Shown in pieces: positions 2,995 to 45,673 of a stretch of 50,703 bases of DNA. The notes beneath the pieces were generated by a model. It had not been told where the DNA came from and did not search any database. It worked only from the letters and a program-made list of their open reading frames with translations. The stretch is from Acidobacteriota bacterium (GTDB lineage: Bacteria > Acidobacteriota > Terriglobia > Bryobacterales > Bryobacteraceae). Every line of letters starts with the position of its first letter. Within the stretch, counting starts at the first letter, position 1. The stretch spans positions 1 through 50,703 of the forward strand of contig JACQZR010000231.1 in assembly GCA_016213775.1 (NCBI GenBank), in the 5' to 3' direction. The position numbers and the translations under genes are program-made.

Positions 2995-5112
2995 TTATAG
3001 GTGGAACAAGTAATTGAACTTAATGAAGAGCTGGCGGCCTGAGGAAAACGAGGGACCGCCGTGACGTGATGGAAAACCCATCATTTCTTCGGCCCAAAGC
3101 CAGTTTTCCCTCTTGTCATTATAGCCAACGTACAGCGCTGTCCCGGGATGAATCAGGTAAGTAAAGAGAATATCCATGCTCAATCGCTTGCTGCGTTCCA
3201 GGCGCATCCACTGGGGATTGGACAGAGTAGCGTTGTAGTCGGCGATCACACGCAGTGAGGCCGCGCGAGTGAACTGTAAACTCACCTTGGAACGCGCGAT
3301 GTGATCATCCAGTACAGTGCGGCTGGAATCGGATAGCCGGCTGTAAAGATAGGTTTCATCCAGGCGGATGCGCGAGGTGGCGTGGAAGGTCATCTCAAAA
3401 CGCGCATCCGTATTGGATGCACCAAACGGCGGCCCTTGCGCCGGATAGTAGTTGATGGCGCGTCCGCTGGCGAGCGCCGCGGTGACGCCTACGCGCTTCC
3501 AGCGATCAGTGGAAAAGACTGCGCGATTCCCGTCGCGCCGGAAAGTGCGTCCGGCGAAAGACTCGGCGCCGGCGATATGCGATGCGGATACCGAACTGGG
3601 CCCTCGGAAGTTAATTGTGAAGGGTACTTCAATCGACCAGTCCTGCAAAGCTCCCGCATGGTCGTAGGTGATCACAGCGTATGCGGATGGGCCGAAACTC
3701 GTGATGAGTCCGCCTTCCGGGCGCCAGCGGTAGGCCGCCTCCGTGTCCGCCTGCCGGATGTCGTGGCGCGGAATGAAGCCCACATCGGCATGAAAAGCCG
3801 GCGACCTGTCGCGATAGCTGCTCGAATAGGTAAAGTGATAGCCCGTATACCGGACTTCTCCATACAGGTCGGAACCGGATGCGCGGCTTCGCCCTTCTGA
3901 CGAAGTGCTCGTGGCGGCCTGACCGGCCAGCACCCAATTCGGCGACAGCTTCCACCTGCCATCCACCGAGGCTACGCTGTTCTGTCCCGACGCAGTCCGC
4001 CTTACCGTGGACAGAAACCCGGCACTCGATTCCTTGCCGATCTCGCGCACCAGACGCAATGCGCTGATTTGTGCCTGCGGTGCACGGTCGTCCATGACAA
4101 GGACGCCGAAAGCCGTGGATCCGAGCTTTCCGGTAACCCGCGCTCCAAGCCGCGGATCGAGGATTCGACGCGAAAAGAACAAACGCTCCGGAGTCTGAAA
4201 GAACGCCGCGTTTTCCAGAAAGAATGGCCGCTTCTCCGGATAGTAGTTCTCATAGCGGCGTGTGGCCGCAATCTGCGGCTCGTCGGATTCCACCTGGCTG
4301 AAATCAGGATTCACGGTGAGGTCGACGCTCACACCATTCCCAAAAGCGATCTTTGAATCGAGACCCCCGCGCAGTTCACCGCTTCGAATCATGGCCGGTA
4401 CGCTTTCATCAAATGCGCGCGCCCGCGCCGCGAATCCGTACGGGTTCACCAGCACCTCACGGCCTGAAGACGAGCGCGCCGGCGCGTTCACTACGGTAAA
4501 CTGCGGGACAAACGCCTCAAGCCGGTCGGTGATCCGCGGCCAGGTGTCGTACTCGCTGAGCCTCGGAATGCGCCTTGTCAGCGAAATGCCCCACTGCTCT
4601 CCTGATCCCGTTTTTGCCCGCATACCCCGGAAGGGGATCACAAAACGGACAACGTAACCGTCCTGCGTCAATTGGCCGGACGATGACCAGACCGCATCGA
4701 AGCGATAGTCATCGGACTGGCCCTCAGTAGTCACGCCGTCGAGTTGCACGCCAAGCGGATTGGCATAGTACAGATACGCGCGCCGTCCGTCGTGAAAGGT
4801 GTCGATCGCGATCCCGACAAGGTCATCTCCGTCGACAGACTCTCGTCTGCTCAGGTGCGCACGTACCTTTGCGGGGTCGTCCTTGCAAACAAAGACGGCG
4901 TGCAGAGCGCTTTCGCTATAGGCGAGGTAGACTGTCGTGCGAAGGCTGGCCGGCGCTCCATCGTTGGGCTGGCGTTGGCGAAAGTCGTCAATGCGCAGCG
5001 CATCTTCATTCAATTCCAGTTGCTGATGAAGCGCCACTGCCGGTATCTGTACAGCAGCGGCCGCAGGAAGAACACCGAGCGCCGAGAGGACGACTATGTG
5101 GAACCACCGCAT
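2995..5112 (-). CDS. DUF5916 outer-membrane protein with N-terminal CBM9-like domain
   Basis: 705 residues from the ATG at 5112, which gives a clean signal peptide (MRWFHIVVLSALGVLPAAAA) and has AGGGAG upstream. The open frame runs further upstream to 5457, but that extension is only the repeat region of the small gene before it read in another frame. Residues about 25-230 look like the CBM9-like domain that precedes DUF5916: TTVYLAYSESALHAVFVCKD, then GIAIDTFHDGRRAYLYYANP. The rest matches the DUF5916 barrel, with the typical NPDFSQVESDEPQ and YYPEKRPFFLENA. The last residues alternate and end FNYLFHL, as in outer-membrane barrels. The family is common in Bacteroidota and Acidobacteriota; its substrate is unknown. 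Confidence 0.88.
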   Translation of the reverse strand: MRWFHIVVLSALGVLPAAAAVQIPAVALHQQLELNEDALRIDDFRQRQPNDGAPASLRTTVYLAYSESALHAVFVCKDDPAKVRAHLSRRESVDGDDLVGIAIDTFHDGRRAYLYYANPLGVQLDGVTTEGQSDDYRFDAVWSSSGQLTQDGYVVRFVIPFRGMRAKTGSGEQWGISLTRRIPRLSEYDTWPRITDRLEAFVPQFTVVNAPARSSSGREVLVNPYGFAARARAFDESVPAMIRSGELRGGLDSKIAFGNGVSVDLTVNPDFSQVESDEPQIAATRRYENYYPEKRPFFLENAAFFQTPERLFFSRRILDPRLGARVTGKLGSTAFGVLVMDDRAPQAQISALRLVREIGKESSAGFLSTVRRTASGQNSVASVDGRWKLSPNWVLAGQAATSTSSEGRSRASGSDLYGEVRYTGYHFTYSSSYRDRSPAFHADVGFIPRHDIRQADTEAAYRWRPEGGLITSFGPSAYAVITYDHAGALQDWSIEVPFTINFRGPSSVSASHIAGAESFAGRTFRRDGNRAVFSTDRWKRVGVTAALASGRAINYYPAQGPPFGASNTDARFEMTFHATSRIRLDETYLYSRLSDSSRTVLDDHIARSKVSLQFTRAASLRVIADYNATLSNPQWMRLERSKRLSMDILFTYLIHPGTALYVGYNDKRENWLWAEEMMGFPSRHGGPSFSSGRQLFIKFNYLFHL

Positions 5113-5150
5113 GGCGCCGTGTTCTCCCTGCTTATCCCCGGGAACCACGC

Positions 5151-5477
5151 TCAGGCGAACATCACTGGGCGGCCCTTGCGTCCACGGTCGTCGCCAGGCT
5201 GATTTCCACGGCCCCTGCCGCGATCGTCGCCAGGCTCGGCTTCGCGTGCGAACATGGCTGGACGGCCCTTGCGTCCGCGGTCGTCGCCAGGCTCGGCTTC
5301 GCGTGCGAACATGGCTGGACGGCCCTTGCGTCCGCGGTCGTCGCCGGGCTCGGCTTCGCGTGCAACCGCGGAGTCCGCCTTCTCCCTCAACTGGATGTTC
5401 CTGTTTTGCGCGATTCCGCTCTGCGCCAAAAGCGCGGTGGCAATCGACACGATACATGCGTGCTTCGAGAAATTCAT
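5151..5477 (-). CDS. Small secreted protein built from a 19-residue tandem repeat
   Basis: 108 residues. It begins with a good signal peptide (MNFSKHACIVSIATALL, cleavage likely after SGIAQ), then a charged, Gly/Arg/Asp-rich low-complexity region: two full copies and one partial copy of a 19-residue unit containing EAEPGDDRGRKGRPAMF, then GRGNQPGDDRGRKGRPVMFA at the C-terminus. PGDDRGR occurs four times. It lies between the SPFH gene and the DUF5916 gene on the same strand, 38 bp before the latter, so co-transcription with the barrel protein is likely. No family is recognised. The copies differ by only one base at DNA level, so the number of repeats may vary between strains. Confidence 0.65.
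   Translation of the reverse strand: MNFSKHACIVSIATALLAQSGIAQNRNIQLREKADSAVAREAEPGDDRGRKGRPAMFAREAEPGDDRGRKGRPAMFAREAEPGDDRGRGRGNQPGDDRGRKGRPVMFA
5250..5363 (-). repeat. 57-bp tandem repeat inside the small secreted protein gene
   Basis: Two adjacent 57-bp units, 5250-5306 and 5307-5363, differ at one base (gccaggc against gccgggc). Shorter diverged pieces of the unit lie at about 5166-5200 and 5219-5249. The unit length is a multiple of three, so changes in copy number keep the reading frame. Confidence 0.9.
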
Positions 5478-5586
5478 GTTGTTCCCCTCATTACGGTATC
5501 TTCAGATCCGCTCGTTTCTGAGCGCATTCTGTTCGAATATTGAGACAATCGGGAATACCGGAGCGGAACAACTTTTTTCAGAAATC

Positions 5587-5625
5587 GTTGGGGGCGCGGG
5601 ACCCACAAACGAGCCCCGCGCCCAA
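5587..5625 (-). terminator. GC-rich stem-loop downstream of the SPFH gene
   Basis: Arms GTTGGGGGCGCGGG (5587-5600) and CCCCGCGCCCAAC (5613/5614-5625) pair with a small bulge around a 12-13-base loop. It lies just past the stop of the minus-strand SPFH gene. The sequence after it on that strand is GATTTCT, only a weak U-tract, so it is a probable but not classical terminator. Confidence 0.5.
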
Positions 5626-5631
5626 CCCCCT

Positions 5632-7551
5632 TTACTGCTTCTGCACGCTACTCTGCTGGACGTTCTTCAGGAACGCCGCCGCCAGAGCCTCAAACGTGCC
5701 GCCGCCGGTGACGAGGATGTTCGGCATGATCGGCGTCTGGCTCTTGGAGAGCGCTTCGATGGCGTTCACAACCATCGTGGCCATCGGGCCGCCGAAGGCT
5801 CTCACCTGGGCCTCATAGGCTTCGGCGCGTGCCAAACCCACCGCGCGAACCTCGGCGCCCTTCGCCGTACCGGTGCGTTCGATGTAGAACGACTCGCCGT
5901 CCGCCTCGGCCTTGCGGGCATTGGCGTTGTTGGTATGGATATCCACACCAACCTTCGATTTCGCCAGTTCAGCCTGCATGTCGGCCGTACCGCGCGCCTT
6001 CTCGGTTTCAATGCGCTCGTCCTGCGAGAGCCGCTGCTGTTTGAACGTCGCGATCTCCTGGTTGGCAATCTCGCGCCGTGTCAGCACCTCCACCAGATCG
6101 GCCGGGAACACGACGTCCTGGATGTAGACGCCGGGAGTTTCGACGTGGTACTTGCCCAGTTCGTAACGGATATGTTCGAGCGCCTGCACCTGCACCGCCT
6201 GGCGCGTCTCAATGAACCTCACCGCGGGCATGCTCTGCAACGTATCGCGGAAGTGGTTGCCCACGGCCGCCTGCAACACTTCATTCACCAGGTTCGGCAT
6301 TGTGCCCACGGTGGAAATCACGCGCGGAGCATTGGTGTCCGGCACGTGGATCTGCACCTGCAAATCGATGCGGAAGACGAAACCCTCACTCGACTTGGCG
6401 ACAATCTGTTCGAGTTTCGCATCGAGATTATGCGCGGTGGAGATACGATCGGCCCAGTTGAGGGTCAGGATCGCCGTGGGTACAATCTCCGCCTTATAGC
6501 AATAAGGGTTGATCGGGTACTTACCGGTGCGCAGAGGCTCCTGCCAGATACCGCGGTGGCCCGGATGGACCAGACTGCCGAACTTGAACTCCGGCCCGGA
6601 AGTGTCGCGTGGGGTGAGGCCCACATAGGCTTTGATCACGGCCACCTGGCCCTGTTCGACGACTAACATGGGAACCTTCTCCACCTTTACCAGGAAGGGA
6701 TTCAAGATATAGGCGCCGTAGGGCAGCGGATCATGCTGGAGGCCGATGCGGCCGCCGTTGTCGAGAAACGCCTGGAAGTTCTGATAGTTGTTGTGAGTCT
6801 GGTTCTTGTTGCCGAGCAACCGTTCAATGACCTCGGAGTCGGTGGAGCCGTCGCGCTCCATCTGTTCGACGTCGGCATAGCCGTTGAGGCGGCTGGCGAT
6901 GTCGCCGCTGGCGAGCGGGTCGCCTTCCAGGGCGGTGACGATGCCGATCATGTCGCGCTGGTCGCCGGCGTTGCGGTCAATGCGCAGAACATCGAGGTCG
7001 GCGTCCTGCAAACCGAAGGTTTCCGGCGTCAGATGGACGCCGCGGCGATGCAGATCGGGCGATACCGGCACGCCGTATACACGGTTCTTGGTGATGACGA
7101 GAAAACCGATCGGGTGAATCGGAAGCGTGGTGCCGGGAGCGAGGACGGGGCGCTGGACACCTTTCTGCCCTCCCTTGGCGACAAAGCCGCGCAGGTCAGA
7201 GAACTGGTCGAATTCGGCTTTGTAAGCCGCGGACTTGGCGCCCGTGGGCAGTGCAGCGCCAACCTGTGCGATCACCACCCCAATCTGGCCGGCCGGGATC
7301 TGTACCCAGGGGTGCTTCTCCACGGCGTAGAGCAGCCAGAAGCGCCAGCGCAGTCCGGGCATCAGAAGATCGGCCTGATAACCGGCTTCATTCTGAAAGG
7401 CGATCGGGTTATCTTCCGACAGCTTTTTGCGGGAAAACCGCCGCGTCACTAAACCGACCTCGGTCGGGGCCACGGAAACAAACGAGGGAAGGACGAGAAT
7501 CGCCGCGACAATGAGCGCGAAGATACTCACCCCAAACATTGTGAGCAACAT
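5632..7551 (-). CDS. SPFH/Band 7 (flotillin-like) membrane protein
   Basis: 639 residues from the ATG at 7551, preceded by GGAGGAGG; a TTG 24 bases earlier is also open but less likely. One N-terminal membrane segment (MLLTMFGVSIFALIVAAILVLP) is followed by a long SPFH region and then an Ala/Glu/Lys-rich coiled-coil stretch near residues 510-590 (REIANQEIATFKQQRLSQDE, MQAELAKSK). The C-terminus ends with a hydrophobic GGGTFEALAAAFL segment. This is the order seen in flotillins and larger bacterial SPFH scaffolds, which form oligomeric membrane microdomains. No NfeD-like partner is adjacent. It is divergent from the fluoride channel gene. Specific function unknown. Confidence 0.85.
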   Translation of the reverse strand: MLLTMFGVSIFALIVAAILVLPSFVSVAPTEVGLVTRRFSRKKLSEDNPIAFQNEAGYQADLLMPGLRWRFWLLYAVEKHPWVQIPAGQIGVVIAQVGAALPTGAKSAAYKAEFDQFSDLRGFVAKGGQKGVQRPVLAPGTTLPIHPIGFLVITKNRVYGVPVSPDLHRRGVHLTPETFGLQDADLDVLRIDRNAGDQRDMIGIVTALEGDPLASGDIASRLNGYADVEQMERDGSTDSEVIERLLGNKNQTHNNYQNFQAFLDNGGRIGLQHDPLPYGAYILNPFLVKVEKVPMLVVEQGQVAVIKAYVGLTPRDTSGPEFKFGSLVHPGHRGIWQEPLRTGKYPINPYCYKAEIVPTAILTLNWADRISTAHNLDAKLEQIVAKSSEGFVFRIDLQVQIHVPDTNAPRVISTVGTMPNLVNEVLQAAVGNHFRDTLQSMPAVRFIETRQAVQVQALEHIRYELGKYHVETPGVYIQDVVFPADLVEVLTRREIANQEIATFKQQRLSQDERIETEKARGTADMQAELAKSKVGVDIHTNNANARKAEADGESFYIERTGTAKGAEVRAVGLARAEAYEAQVRAFGGPMATMVVNAIEALSKSQTPIMPNILVTGGGTFEALAAAFLKNVQQSSVQKQ

Positions 7552-7829
7552 AAAGGAGCCTCCTCCAACCTGCAACGCGCGGGTACCGTGTCAGGCGGAC
7601 AAAACGACCGCGACGCGACCGCGCCATCAGCGTCAAGCTTGCACCCGGAGACGGCAACGACATCTTCTAAGGAACACGCGCACAACGGAGTGCGGCGCGA
7701 GCAATGTTCCTGCGCTTCTGGGGTGCGCGCCGCACCCTGTGCGCTTCGTCAGATTGCCTTCTTTTCAACGGGAGCGTTTTAATACGCTTACATCAGGCCA
7801 CCATGTACTGCTACGCAAACGGGGCCGGA

Positions 7830-8228
7830 ATGTTCGACAATTCGGAAATGGCTTCGTTACTTCCTCCTTATGGCTGGATTGCGGTGGGCAGTGCCCTTGG
7901 CGGGATGCTGCGGTTCTGGCTGGGGAGCGAAATCACGGCCAGAGCCGGTACGGGCCTTCCGTGGGGAACTTTTGCCATCAATGTTGTGGGGGCTGCGGTA
8001 ATTGGAGCGGCGTCGGAGTGGACGCATCAGCAGACGGTACGTTTCTTTGTCATGGTAGGGTTGTGCGGCGGATTTACCACCTTTTCTTCCTATAGCTTAG
8101 AGACACTCCACCTACTCCGTCAGGGTCAAAACGCCCGAGCCTTTCTGTACGCCGTGGGGTCAATGGCCGTTTGCTTGTGGAGCGTATGGGTGGGGAATAT
8201 GTTGGCCAGGGCCTTAAGAAATGGCTAA
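7830..8228 (+). CDS. crcB: Fluoride ion channel FluC (CrcB)
   Basis: 132 residues from the ATG at 7830; ATGs at 7803 and 7848 are alternatives, and about 125-130 residues is usual for the family. FluC proteins are dual-topology dimers that let fluoride leave the cell. The family signatures are present: GGMLRFWLG near the N-terminus, GTFAINVVGA with the conserved Asn51, and GLCGGFTTFSSYS (Phe-box and TTFS motif near 81-88). Four hydrophobic helices can be seen. The gene stands alone and divergent from the SPFH gene. The fluoride riboswitch core that often precedes crcB was looked for in 7552-7830 and not found, so control here is unclear. Confidence 0.9.
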   Translation: MFDNSEMASLLPPYGWIAVGSALGGMLRFWLGSEITARAGTGLPWGTFAINVVGAAVIGAASEWTHQQTVRFFVMVGLCGGFTTFSSYSLETLHLLRQGQNARAFLYAVGSMAVCLWSVWVGNMLARALRNG

Positions 8229-36151: not shown

Positions 36152-38119
36152 GTGAACCCTATGAGGTCGCGGCATCTCTCCTTGGATTCCGGGCGTCGCC
36201 TCCAGGCGATGTTCATGGCCATCGCTGCGCTGTTGACGGGAACCCTCTTGTGGCTTGGCTGGCAACTGTCCCAACAGGACCGCGAGTTGGCCTCGCAGCG
36301 AGCCCAGGAGCGGGGGGATAATGCCGCGGACCTGTCTGTTGCCGCCTTGCAGAAATCTCTTTCCCAGGCTGAAGAGCAGCTCACCCACATGGCGACGCTT
36401 CCATTGTCCGAGTTGCGGGGGGAAGCCTCGCGGGCCGCGGCATCGCTTGGAGGCGACAGCGTTTTCGTCGTGGCCCACAAGGCTGGGCTGGAGGTGTTTC
36501 CGGAAAAGCGGTTGCCGTTTCAACCGGACGGGGCGGCCGCATCCGCCGCGCCGCCGGCGCTGTTCGCCGAGGCCGATGCGTTCGAGTTCAGAAAACAGGA
36601 TTACCGGTCCGCCATTCTTACCGTTGAGCATCTGCTTAGCTCCAGCAACCCTACGGTTCGGGCCTCAGCGCTGATGCGGTTGGGCCGGCTGAATAGGAAG
36701 CAGGAAAAGTGGAATGAGGCACTGGCGGCATATGAGGAAATGCTGGCGCTCGCCGGTGCAATGGTGGAAGACCTGCCCGCTGAACTGGTCGCAAGGCAGG
36801 CGCGGCTGCGCGTCTTCGAAGAACGGGGAATGAATGAGTCCGCACGCCACGAGGCTGCCGCCCTGGCCAGTTTGATGGAAGCGCGGAAGTGGCGGTTGAA
36901 TCGCGGAGCCTACGAGTTCTTCCGGAGCGAGACCAGTCGAATCCTCGGCCCCGCATCCGGACCGGCCGGCACCGATGCCACGTTCGCCATGGCCGCGGCT
37001 GTCGCAAGCCTGCACGAATTCTGGCAGGAGAACAAGGAACCAATCGGCCGGCGGCTTTTTAGAGACAGTGGCGGTTGGAGTCTGGCGTTGTGGCGGGAAT
37101 CAGGCGATGCGAAAGTTGCGTTTCTCGTAGGACCTGTATGGTTGGACTCGGCTCTGCAAAAGGTGCTCTCGAGGCGGGAAATGTCGCTCAGTCTGACGGA
37201 CGCCGAGGGGCACACGGTGCTTGGTGAACTACCGGCCGGCACGCCACGGCAATCCGTGCGTCTGGCTTCCGTCACACAATTACCGTGGAATGTGCACGTT
37301 GTGGCCGGCAATGTAACGGCGGAGAAGTGGATGAATCTCCGCCGCCGATTGCTCGCCACGGCACTAGGGATCATTACCTTGTTCATTCTCGCAGGCGGCT
37401 ACCTCATCACACGCGCGGTGACTCGCGAACTTACGGTCAGCCGCCTGCAGTCGGATTTTGTTTCGGCTGTATCCCACGAATTCCGCACGCCGTTGACGAC
37501 CCTTTGCCTGCTCAGCGGCCAACTGGCGAAGGGAAAGATCGACAAGGCTGGAGATCAAAGCGAGTATTTCAATGTCCTGTCGAACGAGAGCCAGCGCCTG
37601 CGGCGCCTGGTGGAAGGGTTGCTCAACTTTGGCCGAATGGAAGCCGGCGCCGCGCAGTACCGTTTTGAGACCATCGACCCCGCGGAACTTGTTCAGCAAG
37701 TGACGGACGATTTCAGCCGCGAAGGGGAACGGCATCCGATTGAGGTGCACGCCCAAGCGGACGCGCCGCTGGTCCGCGCCGACCGCGCGGCTCTCGCTTG
37801 CGCGCTCTGGAACCTTTTGGACAATGCCGCAAAGTACTCCGCCGGATCCGCTCTCATCGAAGTGGACGTGGAGCGGGTGGACAACCGCGCGGCGATTCGT
37901 GTACGGGACCGGGGACAGGGCATCCCCGCCCCGGAGCAAGAGAGAATCTTTCACAAATTCGTGCGTGGCGAGGCAGCCATACAGGCGGGGATCCGCGGAA
38001 CTGGTTTGGGTTTGGCGATGGTCCGCCATATCGTCGCCGCGCACCACGGCGAGATCGAACTGCGCAGTGATCCGGGCAAAGGCACCGTCTTTACGCTGCT
38101 GCTGCCGGCGGTGGGTTGA
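36152..38119 (+). CDS. Membrane sensor histidine kinase
   Basis: 655 residues from GTG 36152; ATG 36161 (MRSRHLSLDSG) is equally possible. First membrane segment near 20-38 (MFMAIAALLTGTLLWLGW), a large periplasmic sensor of about 350 residues with a TPR-like helical part (ALMRLGRLNRKQEKWNEALA), second membrane segment LLATALGIITLFILAGGYLI near 400-420. HisKA H-box SHEFRTPLT near 441; N-box NLLDNAAKYS; G1 DRGQGIP; F-box FHKFVRG; G2 GTGLGLAMV. The response regulator gene begins 1 bp after its stop, so they form one transcription unit. The signal is unknown. Confidence 0.94.
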   Translation: MNPMRSRHLSLDSGRRLQAMFMAIAALLTGTLLWLGWQLSQQDRELASQRAQERGDNAADLSVAALQKSLSQAEEQLTHMATLPLSELRGEASRAAASLGGDSVFVVAHKAGLEVFPEKRLPFQPDGAAASAAPPALFAEADAFEFRKQDYRSAILTVEHLLSSSNPTVRASALMRLGRLNRKQEKWNEALAAYEEMLALAGAMVEDLPAELVARQARLRVFEERGMNESARHEAAALASLMEARKWRLNRGAYEFFRSETSRILGPASGPAGTDATFAMAAAVASLHEFWQENKEPIGRRLFRDSGGWSLALWRESGDAKVAFLVGPVWLDSALQKVLSRREMSLSLTDAEGHTVLGELPAGTPRQSVRLASVTQLPWNVHVVAGNVTAEKWMNLRRRLLATALGIITLFILAGGYLITRAVTRELTVSRLQSDFVSAVSHEFRTPLTTLCLLSGQLAKGKIDKAGDQSEYFNVLSNESQRLRRLVEGLLNFGRMEAGAAQYRFETIDPAELVQQVTDDFSREGERHPIEVHAQADAPLVRADRAALACALWNLLDNAAKYSAGSALIEVDVERVDNRAAIRVRDRGQGIPAPEQERIFHKFVRGEAAIQAGIRGTGLGLAMVRHIVAAHHGEIELRSDPGKGTVFTLLLPAVG

Positions 38120-42618: not shown

Positions 42619-44274
42619 ATGAGGAAGCCGTATATTCTGGCCATCGATGACGATCTCTCAGTCCTGCGTGCCGTGGAGCGCGATCTGAAAAAGAGATTCA
42701 CTCCCAACTTCCGCGTCCTCTCGGTAGACTCTCCCCACAAGGCGCTGGACACCGTCCGTCAACTTACTGCCCGCGGCGATCGGGTTGCCCTGTTTCTCGT
42801 GGATCAACGCATGCCGCAGATGAGCGGCACGGAATTCCTGCAGCAATCCGCTTCCCTCCAACCTTACGCCCGGAGAGTGCTTCTCACCGCCTACGCCGAT
42901 TCCAACGCGGCCATCGATGCCATCAACAAAGCAAAGCTCCACCACTATTTGATGAAGCCCTGGGAGCCTCCCGAACAGAATCTCTATCCCGTTCTCGCCG
43001 ATCAACTGGAAGACTGGCAGGCAGCCAACGCCGAATCGTTTGAAGGCGCATATATCATCGGCACACGCTGGGCGCCGGAAACGCACCGCCTGAAAGATTT
43101 CCTCGCCAAGACCCAGATCCCCTATCGTTGGATGGAACCGGACGGCGTTGACGACCCCAGGGTGCGCGCAGCTCTGGAGGGACGAACGCAAACTCCGGCG
43201 ATCATCTTTCCCGATGGCACTGTTCTGGAACGTCCCGATCTTGCCCAGGTAGCCGCCAAACTCGGTCTGATCACCACACCGCTCAAGGATTTCTACGATG
43301 TGGTCGTCGTCGGCGCCGGGCCTGCCGGACTTGCCTGTGCTCTCTACTGCAGCACCGAAGGTTTGAAAACCATCATCGTGGAGCGCGAAGCCGCGGGTGG
43401 CCAGGCAGGACTCAGCTCGCGGATTGAGAACTACCTCGGTTTCCCTTCCGGCCTCAGCGGAGCCGATCTTGCCAGACGCGGCGTTGCGCAGGTGCGGCGC
43501 TTCGGAACGGAAGTCCTTGCCCCCGCCGAGGCCGTCGGCTTAACGGCCGAGGGCGAATACCGCGTCGTCAAACTATCCAACGGGCAGGAACTGGCCGCAC
43601 ACAGCGTCGTCATCGCCAGCGGTGTGCAGTGGCGCAGGCTGGACGTTCCCGGCATGGATCACCTCACCGGAGCCGGTGTCTACTACGGCGCAGCCATCAC
43701 GGAGTCCTCCTCGTGCAAGGATGAAGACGTCTACATCGTTGGCGGCGCCAACTCCGCTGGCCAGGCCGCGGTGCATTTCTCCGAGATTGCGCGCAGTGTG
43801 CGAATGATCGTCCGTGGCGATGGGCTGTCGAAATCGATGTCGCACTACCTGGTCGAGCGCATCCAGACCATCCCCAACATCTCCGTCATTCCCAACTCCG
43901 ATGTCGTTGCCGTGGATGGCGCCTCACGCCTGGAGCGAATCACCGTCCATCATCACGACACCGGCGCACGCGAAGAGTTGCGCGCCGCCGCGCTCTTCAT
44001 CTTCATTGGCGCGGAACCCCACAGCGAATGGTTGGAAGGTGTGCTCTGCCGCGATGCCAAGGGGTTCCTCGTCACCGGCGCTAACCTCCTGCAAAACGGC
44101 AAACGTCCACCGGGCTGGCGCATGGATCGTGATCCGTACCTGCTCGAAACCAGTGTCTCCGGAGTGTTTGCCGTCGGAGACATTCGCGACGGTGCGGTGC
44201 GCCGCGTCGCCAACAGCGTCGGCGAAGGCTCCATCGTTCTCTACTTCATCCGCCAATACATGAGGAACCGGTAG
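42619..44274 (+). CDS. Response regulator fused to a thioredoxin-reductase-like flavoprotein
   Basis: 551 residues in three parts. Receiver domain 1-125: acidic pair IDDD near 10, phospho-acceptor Asp62 (FLVDQRMPQMSG), Thr90 (LLTAYAD) and Lys113 (YLMKPWEP). Then a glutaredoxin-like segment at about 140-220 (AYIIGTRWAPETHRLKDFLA, ending TPAIIFPDGTVLERP) in which the usual Cys-Pro-x-Cys is Ala-Pro-Glu-Thr. Then an NAD(P)H/FAD oxidoreductase of thioredoxin-reductase type: FAD site VVGAGPAGLACALY near 231, NAD(P) site VYIVGGANSAGQAA near 371 and VSGVFAVGDIR near the end. The Cys-x-x-Cys of true thioredoxin reductases is absent (GAAITESSSC holds one Cys). Output is therefore probably enzymatic or flavin-based redox signalling. 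The partner kinase starts 4 bp later. Confidence 0.92.
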   Translation: MRKPYILAIDDDLSVLRAVERDLKKRFTPNFRVLSVDSPHKALDTVRQLTARGDRVALFLVDQRMPQMSGTEFLQQSASLQPYARRVLLTAYADSNAAIDAINKAKLHHYLMKPWEPPEQNLYPVLADQLEDWQAANAESFEGAYIIGTRWAPETHRLKDFLAKTQIPYRWMEPDGVDDPRVRAALEGRTQTPAIIFPDGTVLERPDLAQVAAKLGLITTPLKDFYDVVVVGAGPAGLACALYCSTEGLKTIIVEREAAGGQAGLSSRIENYLGFPSGLSGADLARRGVAQVRRFGTEVLAPAEAVGLTAEGEYRVVKLSNGQELAAHSVVIASGVQWRRLDVPGMDHLTGAGVYYGAAITESSSCKDEDVYIVGGANSAGQAAVHFSEIARSVRMIVRGDGLSKSMSHYLVERIQTIPNISVIPNSDVVAVDGASRLERITVHHHDTGAREELRAAALFIFIGAEPHSEWLEGVLCRDAKGFLVTGANLLQNGKRPPGWRMDRDPYLLETSVSGVFAVGDIRDGAVRRVANSVGEGSIVLYFIRQYMRNR

Positions 44275-44278
44275 CGCC

Positions 44279-45673
44279 ATGGAATCTATTACGGCCGAGG
44301 AGTTACTCCGTGTCCCGATCTTCGAGGGCGAAGCGATGGAAGCCATCGAGTGGATCGCCGCAAAGATGGAGGTCCATTCCTTTCAGGCAGGCGACAGCCT
44401 TCTGTCGGAAGGCGAACCGGCCCGCGAGATGATCGTTGTCCTCGCAGGTGAGATTCACTTTCAGCGCATAGGCAACGAGAGGATTCTTGTTGTGCCGGCC
44501 GGACAGGTCACCGGATTGCTTCCCTTCTCCCGCATGAAAACATGGCGGGGCAGTGGATGGGCCGCCCAGCCGGCACGTCTCGCCAAACTCGATTGCGAAC
44601 ATTTCCGTGAGCTCGTCTACCGTGCTCCCGTGCTGGCACAAAGGCTGGTAGGGGAGATGACCGATCGTGCCCGCGAGTTCACACGCATTGAAGAGGGTTC
44701 CAACCGCCTGCTAGCGCTCGGAAAACTCGCCGCCGGACTGGCCCATGAGTTGAACAATCCGGCCGCGGCCGCCGTTCGCTCCTCGGCCCGTCTCCGGGAA
44801 TTGCTGAATGAGCGCAGGCAGTTCGCACTCCTGCTGCGAACCACAGTACTGCCCGCGCAGGCAAGCGAAATCATAGTGGAATTGGGCGAGACCATCCACA
44901 ACTGTTCCGCCTCGCCCGGACTCATTGACCCACTGGAACGCGACGATCGCGAATCCGAGATGAGTGACTGGCTCGACGAGCACGCGCTTCCCTCTGAACT
45001 CGCCTCAGGCCTGGTAGATGCCGGAATCGCCCCGCTCCAACTCGCGCCGCTGGCAGACCAGATGACCGTCGAAAGCCTGACCGCCGGATTGAGGATACTC
45101 ACCGCCGACCATGAGATTCTCTGCCTGAGCCGCGAATTGGAGGAAGCCTCCCGCCGTGTCTCGGAACTCGTGCGCGCGGTCAAATCCTATTCGTACATGG
45201 ATCAAAGCACCATCACGGACGTCAATGTGGAAGAAGGACTGGACGCAACCCTGCGTATGTTCCAGCACCAACTCAAGCATGGCGTGCAGGTCGTGCGCGA
45301 CTTCTGCGGAGCTCTGCCGTCCATCCGCGCCAACGGAAGCGAACTCAATCAGGTCTGGACCAACCTCATCGACAACGCCTTGGACGCAATGGAATCCATG
45401 CCGCCCGAGGCCCTGCGAAAACTCTCCGTCACTACCAGGCTGGAGCGAATTGGAATCCTCGTGGAGATCGGCGACAACGGTCCGGGCATCCCTCCTGAAG
45501 TGGAGCACCGCATGTTCGAACCGTTCTTCACGACAAAGAGTGTGGGCGAAGGGACCGGCTTGGGCCTCGATATCGTCCAGCGCATCGTAAGGAACCACCG
45601 TGGGTCCATCCGGGTTTCGTCCTCACCTGGGAATACCGTATTTCAGGTGCGCCTTCCCGTAAGCCAGTCCTGA
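44279..45673 (+). CDS. Soluble histidine kinase with N-terminal cyclic-nucleotide-binding-like domain
   Basis: 464 residues, GAGGAACC upstream. Residues 1-130 form a cNMP-binding-like beta-roll (LLRVPIFEGEAMEAIEWIAA, FQAGDSLLSEGEPAREMIVV). H-box GKLAAGLAHELNNPAAAAVR with His156, then an unusually long helical insertion to about 330, then N-box NLIDNALDAM, G1 DNGPGIP, F-box FEPFFTTK and G2 GTGLGLDIV. No membrane segments, so it senses inside the cell. It is 4 bp from the receiver-flavoprotein gene and surely its partner. Whether it binds cAMP or cGMP cannot be told; the phosphate-binding Arg-Ala motif is not clear. Confidence 0.92.
   Translation: MESITAEELLRVPIFEGEAMEAIEWIAAKMEVHSFQAGDSLLSEGEPAREMIVVLAGEIHFQRIGNERILVVPAGQVTGLLPFSRMKTWRGSGWAAQPARLAKLDCEHFRELVYRAPVLAQRLVGEMTDRAREFTRIEEGSNRLLALGKLAAGLAHELNNPAAAAVRSSARLRELLNERRQFALLLRTTVLPAQASEIIVELGETIHNCSASPGLIDPLERDDRESEMSDWLDEHALPSELASGLVDAGIAPLQLAPLADQMTVESLTAGLRILTADHEILCLSRELEEASRRVSELVRAVKSYSYMDQSTITDVNVEEGLDATLRMFQHQLKHGVQVVRDFCGALPSIRANGSELNQVWTNLIDNALDAMESMPPEALRKLSVTTRLERIGILVEIGDNGPGIPPEVEHRMFEPFFTTKSVGEGTGLGLDIVQRIVRNHRGSIRVSSSPGNTVFQVRLPVSQS

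Follow-up and report, generated by a model that had tools for sequence, protein, structure and literature searches.

A 50,703-bp stretch of DNA (contig C155, hereafter the window) from an Acidobacteriota bacterium, whose genome assembly comprises 10.96 Mb in 314 contigs at 98.5% completeness, encodes a response regulator whose output is a thioredoxin reductase (TrxR)-like flavoprotein without redox thiols, next to a soluble histidine kinase with a cyclic-nucleotide-binding (cNMP)-type domain. Our results show that this thiol-less REC-TrxR family is not an oddity of the source genome. The reductase CxxC is gone from all 117 REC-type sequences compared, and in 98 of 118 REC-type loci the flavoprotein gene has a kinase homologue on its own strand no more than 300 bp away, a pairing far above chance. 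The zf-UBP gene and the occasional ion-efflux gene found near relatives suggest, from gene content, a switch for chemical stress.

Architecture of the flavoprotein and its kinase

The original prediction for this locus proposed a receiver, a glutaredoxin (Grx)-like segment, and a TrxR-like domain in one protein, an architecture now borne out by Pfam, by an AlphaFold2 model, and by alignment with L048, a thiol-bearing Acidobacteriota relative that lacks REC and is 39% identical across 424 aligned positions (Table 1). The window protein satisfies all receiver criteria (acidic pair, phospho-Asp, Thr/Ser, and Lys), and D62, T90, and K113 are each kept in 115 of the 117 REC-type sequences, a set that represents 130 rows minus 13 without a full match of the N terminus. 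In the model, which was built from 35 sequences (mean pLDDT 86.6, pTM 0.72), the middle domain follows the order beta-alpha-beta-alpha-beta-beta-alpha. PF00462 matches this domain in 3 of 35 members of set A3 and does not match the window protein itself. Both Rossmann domains, for flavin adenine dinucleotide (FAD) and for NAD(P)H, are present according to Pfam, the model, Foldseek, and motif conservation, and Pfam detects no DNA-binding output domain.

The best Foldseek matches of the model are AhpF, at the top, and TrxRs. Among the matches listed, a Lactococcus lactis TrxR structure whose title names the FR conformation had the highest TM-score by target (0.92), against 0.64 for the L. lactis structure whose title names the FO conformation; several other TrxR entries gave about 0.9. 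The predicted arrangement would fit a protein that needs NAD(P)H-to-FAD transfer alone; a single model proves little.

Low-Mr thioredoxin reductase (TrxB) shares with the window protein the FAD and NAD(P)H domains, the fold, and a similar FAD-binding segment (GGQ...EN..GFP). Unlike TrxB, however, the window protein has no CxxC, scores 210.2 bits against TIGR01292 (equivalog cut-off 343.45), carries a one-residue insertion and a Glu in place of the acid after the second Cys, and has in addition a segment around W500 and the N-terminal REC and Grx-like domains. A separate classical TrxR is present in the source genome (383 bits against TIGR01292, CATC kept). AhpF likewise combines a thioredoxin-fold N-terminal part with a TrxR-like part, and its N-terminal domain is a double Grx-like one, whereas the window protein has a single Grx-like domain, no thiol pair, a REC in front, and an AhpF equivalog score of 152 bits, far under the cut-off of 502.9.

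Flavoproteins of the TrxR fold without a CxxC are already known as TrxR-like ferredoxin/flavodoxin-NADP reductases (FNRs), as described in the accessible part of PMC8564101. The window protein has REC and Grx-like domains in addition. Since the FNRs share the fold and turn up as weaker relatives, the window protein could be a phospho-regulated ferredoxin/flavodoxin or quinone reductase of this sort, serving ordinary electron-transfer metabolism. We regard this as decidedly unlikely. The profile favours TrxRs (7jyp, 225.9 bits) over FNR entries (2zbw, 99.6 bits; 5xhu, 94.8 bits), and no ferredoxin link was seen: in a Pfam tally of nearest-neighbour proteins, based on crude gene calls and covering 107 of the 128 picked (the other 21, for the most part apparent antisense calls, were set aside by hand), none of the families had more than four members, and the 25 most frequent of 155 families included no ferredoxin/flavodoxin family. 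The zf-UBP association described below would also be left unexplained.

The kinase open reading frame begins 4 bp after that of the flavoprotein, both on the forward strand. The cNMP-type domain predicted for the neighbouring kinase recurs in its homologues: PF00027 matched 65 of 70 kinases scanned (a set thinned by hand from 109 aligned). The classical cyclic-nucleotide phosphate-binding cassette reads GE...R; at the expected position the window kinase reads VTGLLPFSR, which judged by eye does not match it, and the ligand may be other than a cyclic nucleotide.

Table 1. Positions of the flavoprotein, the kinase, and their domains and motifs in the window
Feature	Coordinates	Strand	Evidence
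Response regulator with TrxR-like flavoprotein output, 551 aa	42619..44274	+	Pfam domains; best match in another Acidobacteriota genome, 54% identity over residues 1-548
REC domain, aa 6-118	42634..42972	+	PF00072 (Response_reg), E 1.2e-12; D10/D11, phosphoacceptor D62, T90, K113 all present
Glutaredoxin-like domain without thiols, ~aa 143-215	43045..43263	+	Secondary-structure order in model; aligns with PF00462-positive domain of L048
APET at CPxC position, aa 152-155	43072..43083	+	L048 reads CPDC there
TrxR-like FAD/NAD(P)H module, aa 226-549	43294..44265	+	PF07992 (Pyr_redox_2, aa 226-537), E 8.2e-33; Foldseek matches TrxR, AhpF
FAD motif GxGPAG, aa 232-237	43312..43329	+	G232, G234, P235 117/117; G237 116/117
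A358-A-I-T361-E362 in place of CxxC-Asp	43690..43704	+	E362 in 117/117
NAD(P)-binding glycine motif GGANSAGQ, aa 375-382	43741..43764	+	G375, N378, S379, G381, Q382 117/117; G376 108/117
Soluble histidine kinase, cNMP-type N-terminal domain, 464 aa	44279..45673	+	Pfam; homologue adjoins flavoprotein in 98/118 REC-type loci
cNMP_binding domain, kinase aa 33-113	44375..44617	+	PF00027, E 1.1e-6; 28.9 bits vs cut-off 27.5
Phosphoacceptor His156 (AHELNNP)	44744..44746	+	Invariant in 109 aligned kinases
HATPase_c domain, kinase aa 354-462	45338..45664	+	PF02518, E 6.1e-24

The 118 loci are those of the 117 aligned sequences plus L037, one of the 13 rows left out of the alignment. The 99 kinases lying this close comprise 80 downstream and 19 upstream of the flavoprotein gene. 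That a kinase might always neighbour the flavoprotein did not hold: among the 20 loci without one at this distance and orientation, nine have a kinase elsewhere in the stretch and 11 have none, the latter including two short contigs (L066 and L097) and two loci with a degenerate REC (L042 and L049). In the 117 sequences, both the phosphoacceptor Asp and the Lys are missing from L042 and L049 only. The absence of a kinase from these two loci, and the absence of an adjoining kinase in relatives with a cNMP-type domain instead of REC, suggest that REC serves as a functional input. In a Rubrobacteraceae metagenome-assembled genome (L053, 9664-13915), one REC-TrxR-like gene is followed by three such kinases in a row, and three cyanobacterial loci (L058, L062, and L081) hold two each.

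In these sister proteins, a cNMP-type N terminus replaces REC, and PF00027 matched all six scanned (L038, L040, L043, L045, L046, and L047). No kinase homologue was found in the 6-10-kb stretches around these genes, the single weak match being the cNMP domain of L047 itself, nor near the Bacteroidota cNMP-type genes L141 and L142. As the sister proteins have no adjoining kinase, the cNMP-type input appears either fused to the flavoprotein or carried by a kinase that faces a REC-fused flavoprotein.

Loss of the thiols and retention of the cofactor sites

The loss of both thiol sites, claimed for the window protein, extends to its relatives. At the first position of the glutaredoxin site, Ser is found in 105 of the 117 sequences and Cys in none; at the fourth, Ser is found in 70 and Cys in 8. 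Of the two motifs whose frequency was in question, the CxxC is absent from all 117, and the CPxC has lost its first Cys in all and keeps its second in those eight. The reductase CxxC is likewise gone from 58 of 58 tree members, which include cNMP-type and unfused relatives, and the acid that follows it is Glu in 56, Asp in one, and Asn in one. Around this site, Y356 is invariant, G357 is present in 116 of the 117, and residue 361 is mostly Thr (89 sequences) or Ser (16). L048 places its CPDC opposite the window's APET and its CATC-D opposite the AAIT-E region; alignments differ by one residue in how they match the CxxC positions to the window protein (one inserted residue), and E362 stands opposite the Asp in every one of them.

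In a 60-row tree, the thiol-less proteins fall on one side of a branch (support 100/99) and two thiol-bearing rows on the other, a thin outgroup in which one row is very long. These alignments and the tree indicate that the thiol loss is family-wide and old. On the best tree, REC-type and cNMP-type proteins each need two changes of state; as the well-supported branches force one, a single origin of the REC-type or of the cNMP-type may still hold.

We also considered an alternative cysteine pair, the finding named by the original prediction as one that would speak against it, and rejected it, as none is conserved in the 117 sequences. The window protein contains four cysteines (240, 244, 366, and 477). 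Cys reaches 20% of the sequences at columns 327 and 366 only, so there is no conserved pair. A true disulfide reductase working through other cysteines could draw on Cys at 366 (93/117), Cys at 327 (56/117), a CxxC elsewhere in 20 of the sequences (in 16 of these at their own residue 328), and the eight remaining second Grx cysteines. We consider it exceedingly improbable, because no Cys is invariant, the window protein has none at 327, and its C240 and C244 lie in columns with Cys in less than 20% of sequences. Since both thiol sites are missing, classical thioredoxin reductase activity is not expected, in agreement with what the original prediction had argued.

The cofactor sites have been retained. 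In addition to the core motif residues (Table 1), R399, S408, and Y410 are invariant in the 117 sequences. HRRxxxR is the NADPH 2'-phosphate motif of low-Mr thioredoxin reductase; it is absent here, R399 being the sole invariant Arg at this site and the residue after it Gly in 80 sequences and Arg in 9. This conservation bears on the possibility that the protein is a cofactor-binding pseudoenzyme, a scaffold that keeps FAD for stability only and gates a partner by phosphorylation. The CxxC lost throughout and the degraded CPxC are what such a scaffold would show, but the invariance of the core NAD(P) motif residues and of R399, S408, Y410, and E362 would be needless for it, and we think this reading very unlikely.

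zf-UBP and antiporter genes near relatives

A profile built here detected a small zf-UBP gene near the flavoprotein gene in 22 of the 130 rows, in Actinomycetota, Bacteroidota, Cyanobacteriota, and Acidobacteriota, by REC-type and cNMP-type genes alike. Across whole genomes of Acidobacteriota, PF02148 occurs in 41 of 51 with the flavoprotein family vs 19 of 246 without it (Fisher 3e-26; kinship is ignored in this and the following tests) and, after removal of the best-represented family, in 17 of 26 vs 18 of 241 (Fisher 2.5e-11). This count leaves out G131, G145, G154, and G240 (weak matches, 1e-41 to 1e-44), G015 (the classical CPDC/CATC protein, L048), and G072 (zf-UBP under the cut-off). 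The corresponding figures for Bacteroidota are 21 of 32 vs 2 of 166 (Fisher 2.6e-18), with G368 and G476 left out (zf-UBP under the cut-off), and 20 of 30 vs 2 of 166 once the seed genomes G325 and G322 are also removed. Of the 21 Bacteroidota genomes with both genes, 18 have them no more than 3 kb apart. For named REC-type loci, zf-UBP was present in 39 of 49 genomes vs 2 of 14 control genomes. The 49 were picked by hand, L062 being left out, from an 80-locus sample that comprises the best 80 of 591; shares drawn from it describe that sample. A zf-UBP domain also occurs in a 475-aa frame of L151 (1685-3112), the remainder of which resembles, by eye, an LtrA-type membrane protein. No described role of bacterial zf-UBP proteins was found in the literature searched.

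These neighbours also bear on a view of the flavoprotein as an NAD(P)H/FAD redox sensor, whose redox state would alter REC dephosphorylation or kinase activity with no enzymatic output. REC domains can serve as a phosphate sink, and the absence of a DNA-binding domain and the invariance of the core cofactor motifs despite the lost CxxC agree with a sensor. We nevertheless consider it rather unlikely, since the cNMP-type sisters without an adjoining kinase keep the flavoprotein module with no phosphorelay to report to, and since the occurrence of zf-UBP beside both types of gene fits an output through zf-UBP better.

A recurrent gene order in Bacteroidota is antiporter, (DsbA-like), zf-UBP, kinase, and flavoprotein. 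Of the 28 REC-type Bacteroidota genomes, 16 have the antiporter gene in the cluster (L158-L170, L189, L190, and L146). Antiporter, kinase, and flavoprotein stand together in the 13 loci L158-L170; in two of these (L160 and L169), zf-UBP was not called at the locus, and a genome search finds it near by in both. The clusters of L189 and L190 are without zf-UBP, and in L146 the antiporter is fused to zf-UBP and sits between the kinase and flavoprotein genes. Among the Acidobacteriota, L057 and L171 likewise have an antiporter-zf-UBP fusion next to the pair. Two antiporters that were scanned combine Na_H_Exchanger and TrkA_N, their best NCBIfam models being YbaL, KefB, and KefC, under the cut-off; the others were recognised by a profile built here. 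In three genomes without a flavoprotein match, zf-UBP lies beside or is fused to a Kef/YbaL-like antiporter (L144, 3374-5724; L145, 1471-3600; L148, 2601-4991), and because the two occur together there, they appear to be linked on their own. Beyond the antiporter, 10 of the 16 clusters continue with a gene resembling VOC dioxygenases, one resembling Abhydrolase_2 esterases, or both, and some of the other stretches end earlier. These genes weakly resemble named quinone-detoxification proteins, so that a possible quinone link is a lead only.

A Kef-like antiporter as a universal neighbour was rejected: among the best 80 of 591 loci, L057 alone has one, and the antiporter is therefore at most one output among others.

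Upstream of the window pair lies a pectate-lyase-like gene and downstream of it a convergent gene for an outer-membrane beta-barrel protein; with these flanks, the pair looks like a two-gene unit. A second pair of the same kind lies on C267 of the source genome (L031, C267:52000-62000, at 4302-8051), with the kinase upstream. It is preceded on the same strand by a 1-Cys-type peroxiredoxin gene; none was found by the related loci L033-L035, where about 1.5 kb upstream of the kinase was covered, and peroxiredoxin, seen at the one locus, was rejected as a conserved neighbour. The window holds a further histidine kinase gene 4.5 kb upstream of the pair (36152-38119; HisKA, HATPase_c, weak TPR, no cNMP match) and, within a long minus-strand open frame, a tandem repeat (5218-5363) of a 57-bp unit in 2.6 copies with 97% matches.

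A candidate switch and its place among known systems

Gating of a flavin oxidoreductase by phosphorylation, as first proposed, remains plausible from the sequences. Tentatively, and with our confidence nearly balanced, we read the pair as an NAD(P)H:FAD switch that would be under phosphorylation control, respond to redox or electrophile stress, and play a KefF-like part. The cNMP-type domain of the kinase would sense a small ligand or a redox/electrophile cue, and the kinase would then phosphorylate D62 of the flavoprotein REC, as the intact residues and the co-conservation suggest. This would alter hydride uptake from NAD(P)H into FAD by the TrxR-like module. As no member of the family has the CxxC, the electrons would not go to the usual disulfide; they may pass to a small acceptor, for example a quinone-like electrophile or O2, or a partner may read the FAD/NAD(P)H state. 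In many relatives, this partner is probably the zf-UBP protein. For a group of Bacteroidota and for a few Acidobacteriota, a Kef/YbaL-like cation:proton antiporter is the probable target, and the flavoprotein would have the role that KefF has for KefC.

Several observations weigh against this switch. The stretches covered contain no antiporter for 12 of the 28 REC-type Bacteroidota (L089, L147, L176, and L191-L199) or, these being short, for L001-L050, and the antiporter clusters may trace back to a small number of independent events. The esterase of L166 scores 27.6 bits against the MhqD model, whose cut-off is 325. zf-UBP is missing from 10 of the 51 Acidobacteriota and 11 of the 32 Bacteroidota genomes with the flavoprotein. 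In the source genome, neither Pfam nor a family-member query found zf-UBP; the window and the 10-kb second locus hold no antiporter, DsbA-like, or zf-UBP gene, and the Na_H_Exchanger-family frames lie on contigs other than those of the two pairs. Since no zf-UBP was found and no antiporter lies on these contigs, the pair in the source genome would work alone or on another target.

A broader version, which we regard as possible but doubtful, is that a TrxR derivative without its cysteine pair has its NAD(P)H/FAD state set by a cNMP-type sensor, which is either fused or works via kinase and REC, and that this derivative acts through zf-UBP on Kef-like ion efflux and other targets against electrophile or quinone stress. 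This would be an unrecognised class of switch, of which the window pair would have lost the zf-UBP component.

The closest functional parallel is Kef with KefF or KefG, where, as in some relatives of the window pair, an oxidoreductase clusters with a KTN-bearing cation:proton antiporter. The fold of KefF and KefG differs from the TrxR-like fold. In contrast to Kef and KefF, the relatives have a kinase pair and a zf-UBP protein, and no antiporter was found with the window pair itself. Kef guards against electrophiles and needs, for full activity, an ancillary oxidoreductase, KefF, from the same operon, according to the accessible text of PMC10224563.

Proteins of this kind bear the database name fused response regulator/thioredoxin-disulfide reductase; the phrase "fused response regulator" was not found among the matches listed of our literature search. 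REC-thioredoxin reductase response regulators are in print as a "Mycobacterium-like" combination seen in two Heimdallarchaeota (PMC5847659). These are the same kind of domain combination, and the accessible part of that paper makes no mention of thiol loss, a cNMP kinase, or zf-UBP. Family-wide thiol loss, the pairing with a cNMP kinase, and the zf-UBP link were not found in print in the literature searched, in which long result lists were covered in part.

Together, these data offer a testable role for a family that is widespread and is matched by thioredoxin reductase models without having the residues for that chemistry, and they tie bacterial zf-UBP proteins to a defined partner. They suggest that, in some bacteria, a phosphorelay and a flavin layer are placed on cation efflux. 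The changed active site within an enzyme fold calls for caution against annotation by fold alone.

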